DNA from: Amaranthus tricolor
Taxonomy: Eukaryota; Streptophyta; Magnoliopsida; Caryophyllales; Amaranthaceae
Direction: 5' to 3'
Length of the DNA stretch: 64,000 nt
Assembly: GCF_026212465.1 (NCBI RefSeq)
Contig: NC_080049.1
Span: 21,525,803-21,589,802, forward strand
Part shown: positions 3,884-64,000 of the stretch, one piece after another
Layout: every line of letters begins with the position of its first letter
Numbering within the stretch: the first letter of the stretch is position 1
Translations under genes and position numbers: made by a program
The notes under the pieces: model-generated
The model's input: only the letters and a program-made list of their open reading frames with translations
The model's database searches: none
Told to the model about the DNA's origin: nothing

Positions 3884-3948
3884 CATATAATTGTCGCAAA
3901 GGAGATTTGCTCATAACATTCTTATCTACCTGATGCATACTAGACAAG

Positions 3949-4454
3949 TGTGAATATTTGAAATAAGTAGCTTATTTTAATTAAAAGTTTTAAAAATAAG
4001 TTTGGTCCTAAAATAAACGTCTTCGTGTTCGATCCTAAGGTCAGCGCTTATTCGCTGTTACTGAAAACGAACAAGAGAAGAACATGTTGAAAGTAAAAAA
4101 ATTTACCACAAATTTATTCGTTATTAGTAACAGAGTAACAATGAATAAAAGAAAGACAATATGATAACTTTTAAAAGGTAAAAAAACAATGAGTAGTTGG
4201 ATATTCATAACAACGAGCCTTAATGGCAACTTTTTTTTTCTTTTAAAAATTATGATATTGTCTTTCTTTTGTTCGTTGTTACTAACAACGAACAAAATTG
4301 TGGTAAATATTTTTTGACTTTTAACATATTCTTCTTTTGTTCGCTACTTTTTATTCGCTGTTAGTAATAGCGAACAAGCCTTAGGCTCAAACACAAAAAC
4401 TCTTATTTTGAAAATTATTTTAAGACAAAAACCTATTTATTTCAAATGTTCACA
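3949..4454. mobile_element. Fold-back MITE with near full-length inverted arms
   Basis: Ends are TGTGAATATTTGAAATAAGT and the reverse complement of ATTTATTTCAAATGTTCACA. The arms continue inward as an imperfect palindrome: CCTAAGG at 4034 and CCTTAGG at 4379, plus the CGAACAA/TTGTTCG pairs and TTTACCACAA/TTGTGGTAAA. The whole element could fold into one long hairpin. No clear target duplication was found. Confidence 0.7.
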
Positions 4455-5526: not shown

Positions 5527-6516
5527 TAGAGGTGTTCATTCGGGTAATCGGGTCGATTTCGGACGGGTGTCATTCGATTCGGTTGTATTTCAGATCGGTT
5601 ATATTTCGGATGCGTGTTGCGACAGGTAATACTCGGGTCGGGTCGGTTAGTTACGATTCGGTTGAAGATCGGTTATTCGAGCTATTGGGTTAGCATCAAT
5701 TCGGTGTCGGTTGAAGTTCATGTCGAGTTTCAATCGGTCTCGGGTTGTCATTGGTTAATAATTGGTTAGGTTTAACCGGATTCAGATCAGGTTCGGGTAT
5801 TTTTCAAGTAGAATTTGGCTACGAATTGCAAATTACTAATTACCATTGATCGAGTCAGTATCAGATTAAGTTGTTAGTCATTTTTTAATTGATGATTTAA
5901 GGTTCATTTATTTAAAGCAAAATAATGAAAATGCAAATCAATTAGTTATCATTATTACATTGTTACTTTTACTTGTTTGACCGGAAATTAAAATTATAAA
6001 GTTCTATCAATTTTCATATAATTTAATTAAAAGTAGTTAATAAACATTGACCATTGATTATTAACTCTAAATATATGAAACCATGTATTTATAAAATTTA
6101 TTTTATTAAAATATTTATGACTTTATTAGAATAACTAATAAGATGATTGAATATGAGTCAATCATACTTTTATGTAAAAAATTGGCTCAGGTTTATAACA
6201 GTTCTATCTAAACTTCGTTCAGATTAAGTCGGTTTTAGCCGGATCAAGTTCGGTTTTGAGCATGATTCGGGTCGGATATTACTGGTGTCGGTCACTATTA
6301 AGTTCGGGTAATCTCGGTTAATAGTTACGTGACGGTTAGAAAAATCGGTTACAGCTCGGGTTCAGTTTTCTCATTTTCGGTTGTCAACCGGTTCGGGTAT
6401 AGCTTCGGGTCGGCTGATATCGGTTCGATAAACCTAAAAAAGAAACACATTTTCGGATCGGTTTACTTTCGATTTCGGATCGGATTTTAGGGTCGGGTCA
6501 CTTTTGAACAGCTCTA
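5527..6516. mobile_element. Non-autonomous hAT element with perfect 8-bp target duplication
   Basis: The ends are TAGAGGTGTTCA and TGAACAGCTCTA, flanked by identical 8-mers GTTATATG at 5519-5526 and 6517-6524. The subterminal arms are packed with GGGTCGG / TCGGTT motifs, and the AT-rich centre carries no transposase. It belongs to the same loose class as 3092-3883 and the element starting at 62376. Confidence 0.85.
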
Positions 6517-18100: not shown

Positions 18101-18108
18101 GGTCTCCG

Positions 18109-18597
18109 TAGCCATGGTAAGCTGATTCGAACTCTTCATTCGATCCAACTTGAATCTAAGTCGAAATGAGTGGGTTTGAGTTGAGATTTTTGCTCCAATT
18201 AATTAAATAGGTAGATTTGACCTAATCTGATAATTAACTGAGTTAGGTAAAGATCAAGATATAAACGAGAAATAATGTATAATCCTTTTAATTATATGAA
18301 TTATTTTCGAGTCAAATCAATTAGTATAATCTGAACTTAAGCAACTCATAAACTAAAATTTTAAAATTGAGACATGAAAAATAAGATAAAATAATTTTAT
18401 AAACCCTGAAATAGAAACTAAAAACTTTCAACTAGCTAAGAGGGTTGAAATCAAGATGACCTATTTTGTTACGGATCAAGCCATGGTTGCGATTTTCAAC
18501 CCAATTAACTAAAACAGAGTAAGTTCGAATCAAGAGGATTCTGATCCATTTATATATGACTAAAACACGAAATTGACCCAACCTTATCTGTTTGACA
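18109..18597. mobile_element. Non-autonomous hAT-like element, relative of the U5-carrying element at 63 kb
   Basis: Both arms align by eye with 63091-63860. On the left, TAGCCATGG..AAGCTGAT, then GAGTGGGTTTGAGTTGAG and CCAATTAATTAAATAGGT. On the right, TGATCCATTTATATATGA and TTGACCCAACCTTATCTGTT. Flanking 8-mers GGTCTCCG (18101-18108) and GGTCTCCA (18598-18605) match at 7 of 8 positions, as expected for an old hAT duplication. The centre contains no snRNA-like sequence. Confidence 0.65.
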
Positions 18598-25114: not shown

Positions 25115-28100
25115 ATGAAACTTTACCCACATAAAATGAAGCAACTTTGCGCTATATTGTTGCTCTTTTCTTTTTACCCTTATCTATTTTCCCCTGTTTT
25201 TTCTGCTTCTCCTCCTCCTAATGGAAAAACTAGAGATGCCCAGAAGTTGTTGAGCTTTAAATCTTCTCTTTTTAACCGAAATATCCTCCAAAACTGGGAA
25301 GAAAATGCTGACCCATGTCATTTTACTGGTGTTTTCTGTAATAACTCCAGAGTTTCTTCTTTGGATCTTAACTCTTTCTCTCTTTCAACTGATTTTTCTT
25401 CTGTTTCTACTCATCTTTTCTCTATTGAACTCTTGACTTCTCTTTCTTTATCTTCTTCAAATATTACTGGTTCTCTTAAACCTTTTCCTCTTTGTTCTTC
25501 CTCACTCTCAGAAATTGACCTCTCTCAAAATTCCATTTCTGGGTCTTTCCTTGATTTGTCAAAGTTTTCTTCTTGTTCTTCACTATCAAGTTTGAATCTT
25601 TCCTTCAATTTATTGGATTCTTCTAAGGATTTGAAAGGGGCTCATTTTGGACTTTCTCTCAAAACTTTGGATGTTTCTTTAAATCATTTATCTGGGCAAC
25701 AAGTTCTTCCATGGGTGTTCTCTCAAGGTTGTGAGAAGTTAACCCACTTAGCTTTAAAGGGGAATAAGTTACAAGGAACATTTTCTCTTAATGGGTGTTC
25801 TAATTTGGAGTATTTGGATCTTTCTTCCAATAATATATCAAGTTCCATACCAAATTTTGGGGAAAATTGTCCTAACTTGAAGTACCTTGATTTATCTTCA
25901 AATAAATTTAATGGAAGAATTGATGATAATGTACTTGTTGGGTGTAACAGTTTGAGCTTCTTGAATGTCTCTGAAAATGAGTTAAATGGAGGATTTCCTT
26001 CATTGCCATCTTCAAGTATGCAATATCTTAACTTGGGTAGCAACAAGTTTCAAGGTATGATTCCAAAGAGTTTTGCTGATGATTTCTGCTCAACTTTGGT
26101 AAATTTGGATCTTTCCTTCAACAATATTTCTGGTATGATCCCAAACGGCTTTGAATCTTGCTCCTTATTGGAGATTTTTGATGTTTCTAACAACAATTTT
26201 TCTGGGGATTTGCCTGTTGACATATTTTTGAAAATGGGAAACTTGAAGGAACTGCACTTAGCCTTTAATAACTTCAAAGGTTCTTTACCTGATTCATTCT
26301 CTATGCTTAGTAGTCTAGAATCATTAGACTTAAGCTCCAATCTGATTTCTGGAAAAATCCCATCTGGGATTTGTCAAAACCCTGATGGAAAGCCTAGCAA
26401 ATTGAAAGAACTTGACCTACAAAACAATCAATTAACTGGTCCAATACCATCCAGTTTAAGTAATTGTTCTCATCTAATTTCTCTTGATCTTAGCTTTAAT
26501 TACTTAAGTGGCACAATCCCAACTAGTTTGGGTACTCTCACTAAGCTCAAAGACTTGATCATGTGGATGAACAAACTTGAGGGAGAAATCCCAGCGGAGC
26601 TTATGTATACTAGAGCACTTGAAAATTTGATTTTAGACTACAATGAGCTAACTGGTTCAATCCCTCCTGGTCTGATGAACTGCACAAATTTGAACTGGAT
26701 TTCGTTGTCGAGCAACAAATTGAGCGGAAAAATACCATCTTGGATTGGTAAGTTGAGTAATCTTGCCATTCTTAAGCTCTCAAACAACTCGTTTTATGGC
26801 GAAATCCCACCCGAGTTGGGTGATTGTAAGAGCTTGTTATGGTTGGATTTGAATAGCAATATGTTCAATGGGAGTATTCCGAAGGAGTTGGCGAATCAGT
26901 CGGGTAAAATGGCTGTGGGTCTTGTTGTTGGGAAGAAATTTGTGTACTTGAGAAATTTTGGAGGTAAGGGTTGCCAAGGAACTGGGAATCTCCTTGAATA
27001 TGCTGGGATTAGGCCAGATGCTGTTAATAGACTCCCTACTGTTTGCAAATTTCAGCAAATCTATCAAGGTCATACTCAGCCCATTTTTAACTATAATGGG
27101 TCTATGATCTTTCTTGATTTGTCCTATAATCATCTTCAGGGTGGTATCCCTAAGGAGCTTGGCACAATGTACTATCTTTCCATTTTGAATTTGGGTCATA
27201 ATAATCTTTCGGGTCCAATTCCGGATGAACTTTCAGGGATGAAAAACATTGGTGTTATGGATCTATCTCATAATCATCTGTCGGGTTTAATCCCATCGTC
27301 TTTGGGTAGTCTTTCATTGTTGACAGATATGGATTTGTCGAGCAACAGTCTCTCTGGAATGATTCCTGAATCAGCACAGTTTGAGACATTCCCGGCTTCT
27401 AGATTCTCGAATAACCCTGGCCTATGTGGTTATCCTCTTCCTCGGTGTGACAAAAACGATGGGGCGAATTCGACTCAACATCACAAGCATGGGAAACAGG
27501 CTTCCCTTGCAGGGAGTGTGGCAATGGGATTGTTGTTCTCTTTGTTTTGCATATTCGGGTTGATCATTGTCGGCCTTGAGGTGAAGAAACGACGGAAGAA
27601 GAAGGAAGCCTTGCAGGATATTTATATGGACGAAAACTCTCAATCGGGAAACAATACAGCTTCTGCTTGGAAATACACGAGTAATCGCGAGGCGTTGAGT
27701 ATAAACCTTGCAGCATTCGAAAAGCCTCTCCGAAAACTTACATTTGCTGATCTTCTAGAAGCCACAAACGGTTTCCACGATGACAGTATGATCGGAAAAG
27801 GTGGATTTGGTGATGTCTACAAAGCTCAACTCAAAGATGGGAGCGTGGTTGCTATCAAGAAGTTGATACATATAAGCGGGCAAGGAGATCGAGAGTTCAC
27901 AGCCGAAATGGAAACCATCGGAAAGATCAAGCACCGTAACCTTGTACCTCTTTTGGGATACTGCAAGGTCGGGGAAGAGCGTTTGTTGGTCTACGAATAC
28001 ATGAAATATGGATCCCTCGACGATGTCCTACATAATCATAAGAAAGGTGGGATCGAGCTAAATTGGGCGGCCAGGAGAAAGATCGCCATCGGAGCAGCTC

Positions 28101-28741
28101 GAGGCTTAGCTTTCCTACATCATAATTGCATTCCTCACATAATTCATCGCGATATGAAATCGAGTAATGTTCTACTAGACGAAAATGTAGAAGCGAGGGT
28201 GTCTGATTTCGGGATGGCTAGACTAGTGAGTGCAATGGATACTCATTTGAGTGTGAGCACTCTAGCAGGTACCCCAGGATACGTTCCACCCGAGTACTAC
28301 CAAAGTTTTAGATGCTCGACCAAAGGGGATGTATATAGCTACGGTGTTGTATTACTCGAGCTGCTCACAGGGAAACCGCCGACAGATTCAGCAGATTTTG
28401 GTGACAATAATCTAGTAGGTTGGGTGAAAATGCACGCGAAATTGAAAATAAGCGACGTATTTGATCCCGAGTTAATAAAGGAAGATCCAAACTTAGAAAT
28501 CGAGCTCTTACAGCATCTGAAAGTCGCGTGTGCGTGCTTGGATGATCGACCATGGAAACGCCCGACAATGATACAAGTCATGGCTATGTTTAAGGAAATA
28601 CAGGCAGGTTCGGGGCTTGATTCGGCGTCTACCATTACAGAAGATGATGGAAGTTTTAGTACAATGGGAGCAAGTTTTAGTACAGTAGATGTACTAGATA
28701 TGAGCATAAAAGAAGTCCCTGAAGGGAATTACAAGCAATAA
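25115..28741 (+). CDS. BRI1: Brassinosteroid receptor kinase BRI1, single exon
   Basis: A 1208-aa LRR receptor-like kinase that binds brassinosteroid at the plasma membrane and, with a SERK co-receptor such as BAK1, starts the BSK/BIN2/BZR1 cascade. Seen directly: a hydrophobic signal region (about 8-30); an N-terminal Cys pair (C68, C75); about 25 LRRs; the hormone-binding island domain (about 595-662, with [16 protein letters not shown]) between LRRs; a C-terminal Cys pair (C771, C778); one membrane helix (about 798-820) followed by KKRRKKK; and a kinase domain (about 888-1163). The kinase has GKGGFGDV (894-901), K915, HRD 1011-1013, DFG 1031-1033, activation-loop STLAGTPGY (1048-1056) and PPE 1058-1060. 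All catalytic residues are present. The length is close to Arabidopsis (1196) and tomato (about 1207) proteins, and the gene is intron-less as usual. The first ATG has a poor context (TTA before it); Met8 at 25136 has A at -3 and starts right before the signal helix, so it may be the real start. Confidence 0.97.
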
Positions 28742-46853: not shown

Positions 46854-48026
46854 TCATTTATGTACAAACCATCCATTAAATGTAACAATATCATCAAGCT
46901 TACTAGTGGAGATCAAATTCAACCTAATTTCAGGAACATGCCTAACATCCTTGAGTAGAAGCTTAGCACCACTATCAGTTACCAAGCAAATATCTCCAAC
47001 ACCAACAACTTGAGTCAAGCCATCATTACCCATCTTCAATACCCCAAAATCTCCAGGTGTATAAGTGGTAAAGAACTCTTTCTTTGATGTCACATGTCGT
47101 GAGGCTCCACTATCAACTACCCAACTAGTTTCGCAACTAGCTAAATTAACAACATCTCCATCATAAACAATGACAAGATCACTGGTAGTTGCGGTTGCTG
47201 CTTGATCATCCTTATCATCATCTTTCTTATCATGATAATTCACATGTTTGCCTTTGCCTCCCTTGTTATCTCTTTTCCACTTGTAGCAAAATTTTTGAAT
47301 GTGACCCATTTTATCACAATAGTTGCATTTTATGTTCTTGAATTTTCCACGGGACTTGCTCCTACTAGAACCTCTATCATTTGAAGCTCTACTATTATTT
47401 CTCCCCCTATTTTCTGCAACATAAGCTTTCTCGGGTTGTGAAGATGACACACCATGAGACTTCTTTCGCATTTCTTCATTCAAGATGCCAACTTTAACGA
47501 AGTCTAAAGTAACCTTCCCGGAAGGAGCTCCATTACAAAGTGTCATTCTAAAAGTATCCCAAGAATCAGGAAGAGTACTAAGTAACAAAAGTCCCTGAAC
47601 TTCATCATCAAACTTGATTTCCATGGCCGACAATTGTTGAGTAATACCATGAAAATCACTCAAGTGATCAGAAAGAGCCTTGTTCTCATTATACTTTAAG
47701 TTCATCAATTGCTTGATCAAGAACAACTTATTATTTCCAGACTTGCTAGCATAAAGCGACTCAAGTTTTTGCCACAAGGTTCTAGCATTAACTTCTTCAT
47801 TAATGTGATTCAAAACATTATCATCAACCCATTGACGAATAAACCCACAAACTTGCTCATGCTCAAATTCCCATTGTTCTTCACTTTTGCCATCCGGTTT
47901 TTGAGTGGTAAAAACAGGTAGATGCCAACTTTTAACATACAACAAGTCTTTCATCTTCCGTTTCCACAAATGATAATTAGTCCCATTTAAACTAATCATC
48001 CTACTAGTGTTGAGATTACCATCCAT
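46854..48026 (-). CDS. Copia gag-protease frame of a truncated retrotransposon
   Basis: An open frame of 390 aa. The N-terminal half is a Ty1/Copia Gag ([17 protein letters not shown] near residue 14, [19 protein letters not shown] near 107). A CCHC zinc knuckle [14 protein letters not shown] (about 235-248) follows, then the retroviral-type aspartic protease start [12 protein letters not shown] (about 303-314). The start of the pre-integrase region follows, and the frame ends at [16 protein letters not shown], so integrase, reverse transcriptase and RNase H are all missing. It would give a nucleocapsid and perhaps a partial protease. Its ATG lies only 38 bp from the LTR end and 20 bp from the primer-binding site. 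The uninterrupted frame suggests a fairly young insertion that lost its 3' part. No second LTR is seen. Confidence 0.85.
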
Positions 48027-59929: not shown

Positions 59930-62375
59930 AATTGACATTGTAAATAGTATAGTTAGGGACCCCCACCAAAATTTGATTCAGGGGCTTTTAAGAAAAGAAT
60001 TTATGCCATTTGTTTAACCTATGGTTAACACATTATAAATTTTCTTAAACACTAAATAATAATTCGCTTAGTTAATTCAATAAAGCGAAAAAATACAATC
60101 AATCATCAATATTTATTGCCCATTAATTGCGTATGTCTTCTCTTAATGGGTACACACGGTTCAGTTAGTTCTGGTTTAATAATACTAAAATTAGATCATA
60201 TCAAAAAATTGTCTCGAACTTTTTTAGACCAGATTGGACAATTTTATCTACAATGGTGTAGTCTGGTTTGGTCTATAATTTTTTGGTTTAAAATTTTTTC
60301 TAAATTTATATATATTTTTATGTAAATATTTCGCACTTACAATCACCAAATACAATAATTTGTTATTAGTTGATTATATTAACATCATTCAAGTATATAT
60401 TACCATAAAAAACTACATCTCAAAATATCTAGGTATGATCTAAAAAATAAAAAACAATTATTTTCGATCATAATACGGTTTTCAGTATGGTATGATCTAA
60501 AAAAAAAAAAACTAGAACCATATCGAAAATCATATTACAAAATCAAACCAGGCCATTTAAACTGTAAATTAAACCAAATACTATATAACTATGGTTTGAT
60601 TCACATTTTAGACTAATTTTTGTTTAAGCTTATGTCTCTTGGTGCAGCAAATTGAGAGGAACAAAAATTTAATGAATTGGATAAAAAAAAAATATAAATA
60701 TGGCCATGAAAGAAAAAAATGGTTTTGCAGATTTGATAGGTTACCATCATATAAAAGAGCAGTTATCTAGCTTAGCTAGTTGCCACTTTCACCTTTTTAG
60801 TGTTTTTAAATATTTTTTAGTTGATTTTTTTTTTATTTTAATATCTTTATTAAGAACAGCAAAAGTAAAAATATAGTGGGAGCGTTGAAAATTTTAACAG
60901 ATGATACAGTGCCCTACTTGAGAGTTGAGACTTATTCGAGTTGACGAATACAAATGACGAATAGTTGAATAATTAAAATTAACATATAATATAAAATTAA
61001 TGAAGTATGGAATTAACTAGCATTATGTCAATACTTCCTATTCCCTAGTCCCTACTTGAGTAAGATTTTCTTAATGCACTTTCACTATTCATTTTCCTTT
61101 TTATTAAACCAATATAATATGCTTTATTCTTTTAAAATTAAAGGATAGACTGAGAAAATAAGAAGGCTAGATGAAATTCGATTTTAAAATTTAATCGAAG
61201 AGATATAATATTTACTACAATTGAAAAATAATTTGTTTTAGTAAACGTACTTAAAGTAAATATTTCCTTTATCTAACTCATCACCTAAAGTTATAATGTT
61301 TGGTTAAAAATAATTTTGGGAAACCTTTATCTACAAGAGTTTGATACACCTAATATTTATAAAGTTTGATAAAAATTTGGGAAATTCCACATGGTAAGCA
61401 CCAAGTATAGCGAAAAACGAGTGGTAGCAATTTTTAAATTTTTTTTTCACAAAATAGCACTCAACTCTTTGAAAAGTCACTACGGTAGCATTATGACGCC
61501 AAAAATGTTATGTTTCCATTAAGTGGTGAAATGACACAAATACCCTTGTTTAATTTCAATAAAAGGCAGCATCTCCTTCCTCTTCCTTTCAATGTCTTCT
61601 TGCTCTTCCATTAATGTTCTTCTTCCAACATAACCATAAACTATGTCCTCAACTTCCATACACTCAAGAATTTCTTCAAGACCTCCATAAATCTTCTTGC
61701 TCTTCCATTAATGTTCAGCTGTTCATACACTCAAGATGATAACAATGTGTCATCTTAGGGTGTTGTGCAATCATTGATAAGTTAGTTAAAATGGCACTTG
61801 ATATGCACTTGTAGTTTTTCATATCAACTAATTCAATCATACTAAAGAGTAACACATAAGTTTAATAATCAAAAGTCATACACAAAAAGTATGAACATGG
61901 AACATAATAAGCAATTGTTATTTTAATTGATTAATTAAGTTGGCTTGAGCAAGCTTGCATAAAAGTTCAAGTCTCCACTTTTAAGTTAAGCTTCAATTCC
62001 CAACTCACAAGTAGCAAAAGGGAATAAGGAACCAATTGGTTCCATTCGAGTTTTTATCGACTATAGTAATCAATTTTAAACAATCCATATCGCAAATCAA
62101 TATCAAGACACATGAATATTAAACCACTTATGTAACATTTACTTCACGCTCAAGGGTCGTACCTATTAAATTGAAGATCCATCATCCATCTGTTAATAAA
62201 TTTGGTGAGTTTTGATCAAAAAATTGTGGGCACTATTTCTCACAATTTTTAGAGAATATTCAAGACACATATACCCAAGATAGGTAATTTTGAGCATACT
62301 ACACTATCCGATCATCCATTCTGCAACAATTCAGTCCTATAAAATTATTAGTGTATTATCTAGACAAGGTACATC
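59930..62375. other. WRKY upstream region, then AT-rich spacer with element scraps
   Basis: No further gene. Scraps: an inverted patch of GGTTTGGTC/AACCAAAC and TATGGTATGATC motifs at about 60150-60610, and the sequence GGGAAATTCCACATGGTAAG at about 61379, which looks like one end of a widespread plant MITE whose other end was not found. Confidence 0.45.
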
Positions 62376-62876
62376 TAGAGCTGTTCAAAACAAACCCGAC
62401 CCGGAATCGAAAATTATCCGACCCGAAAAAATGTAAGTTTTTTAGGTTTACCGAACCGCAATTACCCGAACCGATACTTCACTCGAACCGTTTGATAACC
62501 GAAAAGGGCAAAACCGAACTCGAACTGCAACCGAATTTTATAACCGACATATAAACCTTAACCGATGTTACCCGAACTGAACAGTGATCGACCCGAGTCA
62601 AATCCGACCCGAATTATGCACGTAACCGAATGTAACCTGACTAAAACCGATTAAGATCGAACTGCTTTTAACCCGAACTGATACAAACCCGATCGATTAT
62701 TAATCGAACTGTTTTTAACCCGAACTGATACAAACCCCAAACCGATTATAAATCGAACTGTTATAAATCCGAATCAAATTTTCACCTAATTTTAGCAAAT
62801 TAAGTCCAATTTCAGTTTTCTAATAATACGGAAAAAGGAAGAACACAAGTTCTATACAGAAGAGATTGCATACAGA

Positions 62877-63066
<190 letters not shown>

Positions 63067-63387
63067 ATTGAAATAAATTGATCTGCCTACTAGGGCTGGC
63101 AAAAGCTGACCTGCCCTACTAACCTGATATGAAACCGACTCGAAATTAGCGGGTTTGGGTTTAGATTTTTGACCCAATTAATTAAATGGGTCAACCCGAC
63201 CTGATCTGTTTATTAAATGGGTTAGGTTCAGGTTGAATATTTAAACCCGAAAAAACCTGTTTAACCCATTTATTAAATTTAAGACGGATCAACATTTGCC
63301 AAATACTTCGTAAAACTAAGATAATACCAATTACCATGTATTGAGGGATTTGTCAGCTGAAGATGACTTTCAATAAGAAAGGAAGTT

Positions 63388-63398
63388 GTCCCACATCG
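63388..63398 (+). promoter_or_regulatory. Upstream sequence element (USE), distal copy
   Basis: GTCCCACATCG is an exact match to the plant snRNA upstream element RTCCCACATCG. It lies in a 59-bp tandem duplication (unit GGGATTTGTCAGCTGAAGAT ... GTCCCACATCGGCTA), so the second copy follows exactly 59 bp downstream. Confidence 0.8.
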
Positions 63399-63446
63399 GC
63401 TAAGGGATTTGTCAGCTGAAGATGAATTTCAATAACAAAGGAAGTT

Positions 63447-63457
63447 GTCCCACATCG
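63447..63457 (+). promoter_or_regulatory. Upstream sequence element (USE), proximal copy
   Basis: A second exact GTCCCACATCG. Thirty-one bases separate it from the TATA-like box at 63489. That is close to the spacing known for RNA polymerase II snRNA genes in plants; polymerase III genes such as U6 have about ten bases less. Confidence 0.85.
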
Positions 63458-63488
63458 GCTATGAAAGATACTAATAAAAGAAAAATCC

Positions 63489-63495
63489 TTTAAAT
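63489..63495 (+). promoter_or_regulatory. TATA-like box of the U5-like gene
   Basis: TTTAAAT lies 31 bp after the proximal USE and about 30 bp before the expected RNA 5' end. It is not a consensus TATAAA, which may lower activity. Confidence 0.55.
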
Positions 63496-63517
63496 CACTT
63501 CCAAATATCTCATACTA

Positions 63518-63640
63518 ACTTACGCAGCCACGCCGTGAGCACAAAGCGAACTATTCTTTCGCCTTTTACTAAAGAATACCGTGTGCTCGCTGCATTAAGT
63601 GGCATACGTTTATTTTTGGAGGAGGCCTTTAATTAAGGTT
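63518..63640 (+). ncRNA. U5 spliceosomal snRNA-like gene (variant)
   Basis: U5 RNA holds the exons together in the spliceosome through its loop I. Here the 11-nt loop CGCCTTTTACT (63560-63570) is exact and is closed by a perfect 8-bp stem TATTCTTT / AAAGAATA. The inner-loop residues CGAA on the 5' side and CCGT on the 3' side are also U5-like. An outer stem GAGCACA (63537-63543) / TGTGCTC (63582-63588) and GCAGC / GCTGC extend it. An Sm site ATTTTTGG (63612-63619) and a 3' stem-loop GGCCTT / AAGGTT (63624-63640) follow in the right order. Stem sequences differ from the usual plant U5, but pairing is kept. The ends are estimated from promoter spacing and the 3' stem. Expression is not proven; it could be a pseudogene with an intact fold. 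Confidence 0.8.
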
Positions 63641-64000
63641 AAATGGGTCAAATGACCTGAAATATATGAATTTAATGACCTAAAAAAAAAGTAGGTTAAA
63701 TGGGTCATTAGCAGGTTGATCCGATCTGCTACAGATCAGGTTGGGGTTTTAATTTTTGACCCATTAATTAAATGGGTCAGGTTCAGGTTAAGGGTTTATT
63801 GACCATTTATATATGATCCGAACCTGAAAATGACCCAACCCGACCTGTTTGACAACCCTATCTGCAATATCTGATAAAACAATCGGTAATTATTTTTTGT
63901 AAGTAAATGAGCATACATCAATTAAAAACCTGACTATTAACTTATTTCGATATTGACCCGATCAATAGTTATCCGTAACCGATAACTACTCGAAAAATAA

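Follow-up and report, generated by a model that had tools for sequence, protein, structure and literature searches.

A U5 snRNA gene of Amaranthus tricolor, truncated at its 3′ end, has very probably been captured by a Pack-hAT transposon and then amplified mainly by a second hAT-type element. The cargo is new, while the mechanism is of a known kind. The copy described here lies in a 64,000-nt stretch of genomic DNA, hereafter the window (Table 1). In a single genome, the capture of an snRNA gene by a transposon can be followed through one breakpoint, a likely donor, U5-less elements that have the arm in common and an empty site to the later amplification. U5 gene copies have in this way become dispersed over the genome, and most of them are probably silent.

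The U5 sequence and its carrier element

The first-pass annotation had made its U5 reading depend on a significant match to the Rfam U5 model, and such a match is found. Positions 63526-63642 of the plus strand score 89.6 bits (E = 3.2e-14, gathering score 40), and this is the sole Rfam match above cut-off in the window. The U5 fold includes loop I and the Sm site, as in a functional U5. Of the gene parts that had been listed, two USE motifs, a TATA-like box, loop I and the Sm site are present in this order, and only the 3′ stem-loop did not stand (see below). All 14 Arabidopsis U5 genes carry USE and TATA (PMC545797). The second USE and the TATA-like box of the element keep the spacing of the host U5 genes: TTTAAAT occurs at the position matching the TATA-like box in both host U5 genes identified here, and the distance from the second USE to loop I equals theirs. 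The two USE motifs lie in two 59-bp blocks that form a head-to-tail duplication (97% identical).

The U5 sequence is held by a 770-bp hAT-type element, as had been proposed, and the limits given for it proved exact, since the same two ends recur at independent loci. Its fixed ends form terminal inverted repeats of the hAT kind (TAGGGCTGGCAA against TAGGGGTGTCAA, the reversed right end of most copies, identical at 10 of 12 positions), and its left arm is common to U5-less hAT elements. When the 770 bp were searched against the genome, all 40 scored matches (the best 40 of 1058 candidates) were full length or nearly so, with 96-100% identity; the arms and U5 do occur together in many copies. Seven stand-alone copies are found among the fetched loci (L004, L017, L030, L040, L043, L051 and L071), five of them with perfect and mutually different 8-bp duplications: ATATTTAT, GTATTGCC, TTTTAAAG, AAGTATCG and GTTTTCCC. 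No clean target duplication was found in L043, and no ends were located in L071.

Table 1. Positions in the window of the U5-carrying element, its parts and related elements
Feature	Position	Strand	Basis
Outer non-autonomous hAT-type element, TAGAGCTGTTCA...GAACACCTCTA, ~1.9 kb, carrying the U5 element as insert	62376..64000, to ~64273 (273 bases past the window)	+	Ends and 8-bp duplication at this locus (L001)
Outer element, left 8-bp target duplication GGTACATC (right copy past the window)	62368..62375	.	GGTACATC on both sides
Inner U5-carrying hAT-type element, TAGGGCTGGCAA...TTGACAACCCTA, 770 bp	63091..63860	+	Same ends in stand-alone copies, whose 8-bp duplications differ
Inner element, left target duplication, TCTGCCTAC here, which has one inserted base relative to the empty site (TCTGCTAT)	63082..63090	.	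Alignment with empty sites
Inner element, right target duplication, TCTGCAAT here and TCTGCTAT in most nested copies read	63861..63868	.	Alignment with empty sites
Left arm	63091..63278	+	188 of 189 positions of its consensus agree with U5-less hAT elements L111-L115
Segment captured from the host, with the region upstream of U5, the promoter and the U5 body, ending shortly after the Sm site	63279..63625	+	Identity to C17:7391200 ~95% in copy L004
59-bp block with USE, first copy	63344..63402	+	Self-comparison; the likely donor (L015) has a single block
USE 1, GTCCCACATCG	63388..63398	+	Motif reading; USE consensus from PMC545797
59-bp block with USE, second copy	63403..63461	+	USE here at host spacing
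USE 2, GTCCCACATCG	63447..63457	+	Motif reading
TATA-like box, TTTAAATC	63489..63496	+	~30 bases upstream of the U5 start
U5 RNA body up to and including the Sm site	63526..63619	+	Rfam model and sequence reading
Loop I, GCCTTTTAC	63561-63569	+	Sequence reading
Sm site, ATTTTTGG	63612-63619	+	Sequence reading
Right arm	63626..63860	+	Takes the place of the donor's 3′ stem-loop and 3′ box, directly after the Sm site
U5-less relative of the outer element, perfect 8-bp duplication CATATAAC	5527..6516	-	Same window
Sequence distantly related to the inner arms (71-75%), without U5, flanked by AGGTCTCC repeats	18108..18596	+	Similarity to the arms, same window

Pack-TYPE hAT elements are known to make 8-nt duplications and to acquire host DNA, and have been characterised as shufflers of coding DNA (PMC8903248). 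The U5 element resembles them in being non-autonomous (no ORF of at least 180 aa, and thus no transposase of its own, lies within the 770 bp), in its hAT-type ends and 8-nt target duplications, and in carrying host DNA that also exists at a donor locus. It differs in its cargo, which is a Pol II snRNA gene with promoter rather than coding DNA; the main text of PMC8903248 has no instance of 'ncRNA' or 'RNA gene' and a single one of 'non-coding'. Among the open-access papers listed, taken by title and start of abstract, none describes a DNA transposon that carries an snRNA.

snRNA-headed SINEs and snRNA retropseudogenes move through RNA, and the Cassandra TRIM is a non-autonomous plant LTR retroelement with a 5S rRNA sequence (Pol III). 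Like Cassandra, the U5 element is a non-autonomous plant element carrying an RNA gene and its promoter, but it is a DNA transposon and its cargo is the Pol II gene U5. With the snRNA-headed SINEs and with snRNA retropseudogenes, the subject of PMC4476161, it has in common that an snRNA sequence is multiplied by mobile elements. Unlike both, it moves as DNA and takes the promoter and upstream region along.

Copy number, nesting and the empty site

We searched a genome of 519.85 Mb in 45 contigs (C1 = 45.4 Mb). The U5 model gave 47 scored matches, of which 44 were read as element-borne, one was inferred to be so from an adjoining left-arm match, and two are arm-less genes. As only the best candidates were scored, further host U5 genes may exist. 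Altogether we read 88 U5 copies on elements, and 8-bp duplications flank many of the loci; the suggestion that transposition could multiply U5 is thereby borne out. First-look candidates for different parts of the element number from 534 to 1492. Rfam-based U5 counts in such a genome can be dominated by transposon copies, as 45 of the 47 scored matches are here.

Of the best 40 copies of the U5 element, 35 are nested in an outer element, this locus included, and five stand alone. The outer element has identical 8-bp duplications at 37 of the 50 distinct loci for which both ends were located, and at 44 of the 50 if one mismatch is allowed; like the inner element, it thus shows the target site duplication of the hAT superfamily. 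This count starts from 57 rows with both ends and leaves out seven that are repeat loci or segmental duplicates (L022-L025, L027, L028 and L037), while L066 and L075, whose ends were wrongly paired by the script, are scored as failures. When the right portion of the outer element served as query, 40 matches were scored (the best 40 of 1492 candidates). Twenty-two of them are new loci, and in 19 of the 20 that were read the U5 sequence adjoins, in one of the 19 in truncated form.

Outer elements without the insert are also present. A query was made by joining the sequences on either side of the insertion point; its 40 scored matches (the best 40 of 518 candidates) all cross the join, and each of the ten empty sites read has a single TCTGC[TC]AT, that is TCTGCTAT or TCTGCCAT. 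Nested copies have TCTGC(C)TAT to the left of the U5 element and TCTGCTAT to the right. The target site is therefore single in empty outer elements and duplicated in nested ones, which argues that the U5 element inserted into the outer element and that the composite was then multiplied.

A long (AT)n run (62877-63061) lies inside the outer element and adjoins the insertion point, and AT runs of differing length occupy the same spot in the ten empty sites read. AT repeats are unusually abundant in the genome of Amaranthus tricolor, assembled as 17 chromosomes and 520 Mb (PMC9847342). Five composites on C3 (636565, 684079, 3137612, 3185110 and 3232617; L021-L025) have one duplication in common, CTCCTACA, and are spaced by ~47.5 kb within two groups; they are probably segmental duplications. 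Locus L066 contains two U5 elements (1709-1825 and 3921-4037) in the same orientation, 2.2 kb apart.

Likely donor, breakpoints and the missing 3′ end

An arm-less U5 gene at C17:7391200 (minus strand, L015) is identical to the stand-alone copy L004 at 210 of 221 and 125 of 132 positions. The match spans the upstream region, the promoter and the U5 body, starting with TATTAATTTAAGACGG and ending with GGAGGGAG. This gene has a single upstream USE in a single 59-bp block, a 3′ stem-loop and a 3′ box, and a U1 gene lies ~0.9 kb away. It is likely the donor of the captured segment, or a close paralogue of the donor. The other host U5 gene (L009) sits between two U1 genes. Element-type U5 differs from these two host genes in reading GTGCTCG in place of their GTGTTCG. 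A U1 match is also found ~500 bp from the U5 element of the stand-alone locus L004 (843-1001, minus strand, 95.8 bits). The U1 genes next to the host U5 genes score higher, and no USE is visible by eye at this match; perhaps it is a pseudogene, possibly close to the U5 element by chance.

With the left arm as query, 11 of the 40 scored candidates (the best 40 of 802) match exactly up to position 189. Five of these loci were read (L111-L115): they differ from the element consensus at one of 189 positions, beyond which they continue into a different interior that lacks U5, which places the left breakpoint at window position 63278/63279. TATTAA(A)T is common to arm and donor at this point. The right breakpoint was placed from the donor side alone.

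The U5-less family with this left arm includes a locus on C6 (18480458-18486547, L116) where two left arms in facing orientation are separated by 6.1 kb. Within the 2 kb read between them, a Dimer_Tnp_hAT domain scores 64.9 bits (cut-off 21.4) on the strand opposite to the starting left arm, and may belong to the facing copy. The same 2 kb hold a 351-aa ORF on the other strand from the hAT domain, with a weak zf-BED match (17.8 bits, below the cut-off of 20.6). One protein of this locus had no match among solved structures. The ORFs of this locus point to putative hAT-type parents.

The gene had been annotated as looking complete, which does not hold: the 3′ stem-loop and the 3′ box, which 3′ processing of snRNAs requires, were lost in the capture. 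Comparison with the donor and folding show that no host-type stem-loop follows the Sm site; a short hairpin remains in its place. The 3′ box, CA(N)3-10AGTNNAA, is necessary for plant snRNA genes (PMC5079582). Within 120 nt of the Sm site it is found in none of 88 element copies, whereas both host genes have it. The scan comprised 90 rows, i.e. the two host genes and the 88 element copies, of which one (L090) is truncated before the box region and two are in L066; ten repeat loci (L022-L025, L027-L029, L037, L079 and L080) were left out. With these 3′ parts lost, any transcript of the element would be expected to read through into the right arm rather than become a normal U5 snRNA. In predicted folds of such a fused RNA, part of the Sm site is paired whichever of the three end points is used, although the pairing is weaker for the longest. 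In both host U5 RNAs the Sm site is predicted to be free at the stem-loop end and partly paired at the other two end points.

We propose the following history. A non-autonomous Pack-TYPE hAT element very probably captured ~290 bp of a host snRNA locus, comprising the promoter and the U5 body to just after the Sm site; the mechanism may have been repair with microhomology at the left junction or re-mobilisation of neighbouring insertions. The 59-bp USE block then doubled inside the element. The U5 element jumped alone, with hAT transposase presumably supplied in trans. One copy landed in a second non-autonomous hAT-type element, and the composite then multiplied. Most copies are expected to be methylated and silent, and the U5 they carry is probably silent or defective as U5.

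Decay of the copies and competing explanations

Among the best 40 copies, mean distances from the consensus are 0.0149 in the left arm, 0.0166 in the right arm, 0.0121 in the U5 core and 0.0151 in the outer right part. Plant DNA mutates at ~0.7-1.3e-8 per site and year, a rate that would date the burst to about 1-2 million years ago. A tree of 65 copies (58 nested and 7 stand-alone) is star-like, with the stand-alone copies scattered over it, and is silent on which form is older. In U5 as in the arms, the rate of change counted per copy is several times higher at C/G than at A/T sites. Such near-neutral decay, fastest at C/G, would fit methylated silent DNA, a reading that is suggestive only, since C>T or G>A changes make up 19 of 31 events in U5 but 79 of 163 in the arms.

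Could the element have been kept as a mobile snRNA-type promoter, with a doubled USE block and no 3′ box, sending read-through transcripts into flanking DNA? Consistent with this idea, each element has two blocks at 65 of the 68 element loci with enough upstream sequence, the second USE is intact in 30 of 40 copies, and the 3′ box is missing. Nonetheless we consider it unlikely. The block is single at three loci (L013, L067 and L074), one sublineage includes five copies that spread although part of their first USE is gone, and no clear sign of constraint is seen in the captured upstream region: 81 mutation events against 88.9 expected by site type, or 124 changes against 129.1 when counted per copy.

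That some or many copies work as mobile U5 genes, yielding variant U5 RNAs that enter spliceosomes, appears distinctly improbable. Besides the host spacing of USE and TATA-like box, it draws on the intactness of loop I in 36 of 40 copies and of the Sm site in 34 (25 copies keep both together with the second USE) and on the 13 of these 40 whose U5 body equals the consensus. Such figures favour intact copies, because copies were chosen by score: the model search picks by U5 score and the 770-bp query by whole-element score, and the copies read all score highly. Site-type rates taken from the arms and the outer right part of the 40 copies predict 38.7 mutation events in the U5 body, where 31 are observed, and no clear constraint follows from this. 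Counted per copy there are 42 changes against 57.7 expected, five of them at A/T sites, a deficit that could reflect weak constraint on U5. Overall the figures lean to mild constraint, without a clear sign of selection for U5 function. Variant U5 sequences, which the first-pass annotation had anticipated, do spread with the element: seven copies (L035, L038, L050, L066, L068, L075 and L077) form a sublineage with two U5 changes in common, and it is five of these that lack part of the first USE. What stands against functional variants is the missing 3′ box and proper 3′ stem-loop, together with the partial pairing predicted for the Sm site in the fused RNA at every end point tried, whereas the host RNAs leave it free at the stem-loop end.

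Retroposed U5 pseudogenes lying by chance between repeats would also be dispersed through the genome, but we reject this highly improbable reading, as the copies extend upstream of the RNA start, have both arms and fixed ends, and are flanked by 8-bp duplications. An assembly error joining arms and U5, conceivable next to long AT repeats, has a negligible probability and is rejected because identical junctions recur at scores of loci with differing flanks and duplications.

For the captured, 3′-truncated gene that we favour, one further consequence may be considered. There is a slim chance, judged from sequence, that the transposon, in dispersing many copies of a gene for a spliceosomal RNA, has spread promoters without a 3′ box that drive read-through RNAs, or siRNAs matching U5, with effects on flanking genes or on the U5 genes of the host itself. 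The element offers a natural experiment on the 3′-end requirements of a U5 gene and on whether dispersed snRNA promoters are silenced.

Elsewhere in the window, a 1208-aa ORF (25115-28741, plus strand) encodes a BRI1-like receptor kinase with a brassinosteroid receptor island domain, and a 390-aa ORF (46854-48026, minus strand) with copia-type gag domains belongs to an LTR retrotransposon.
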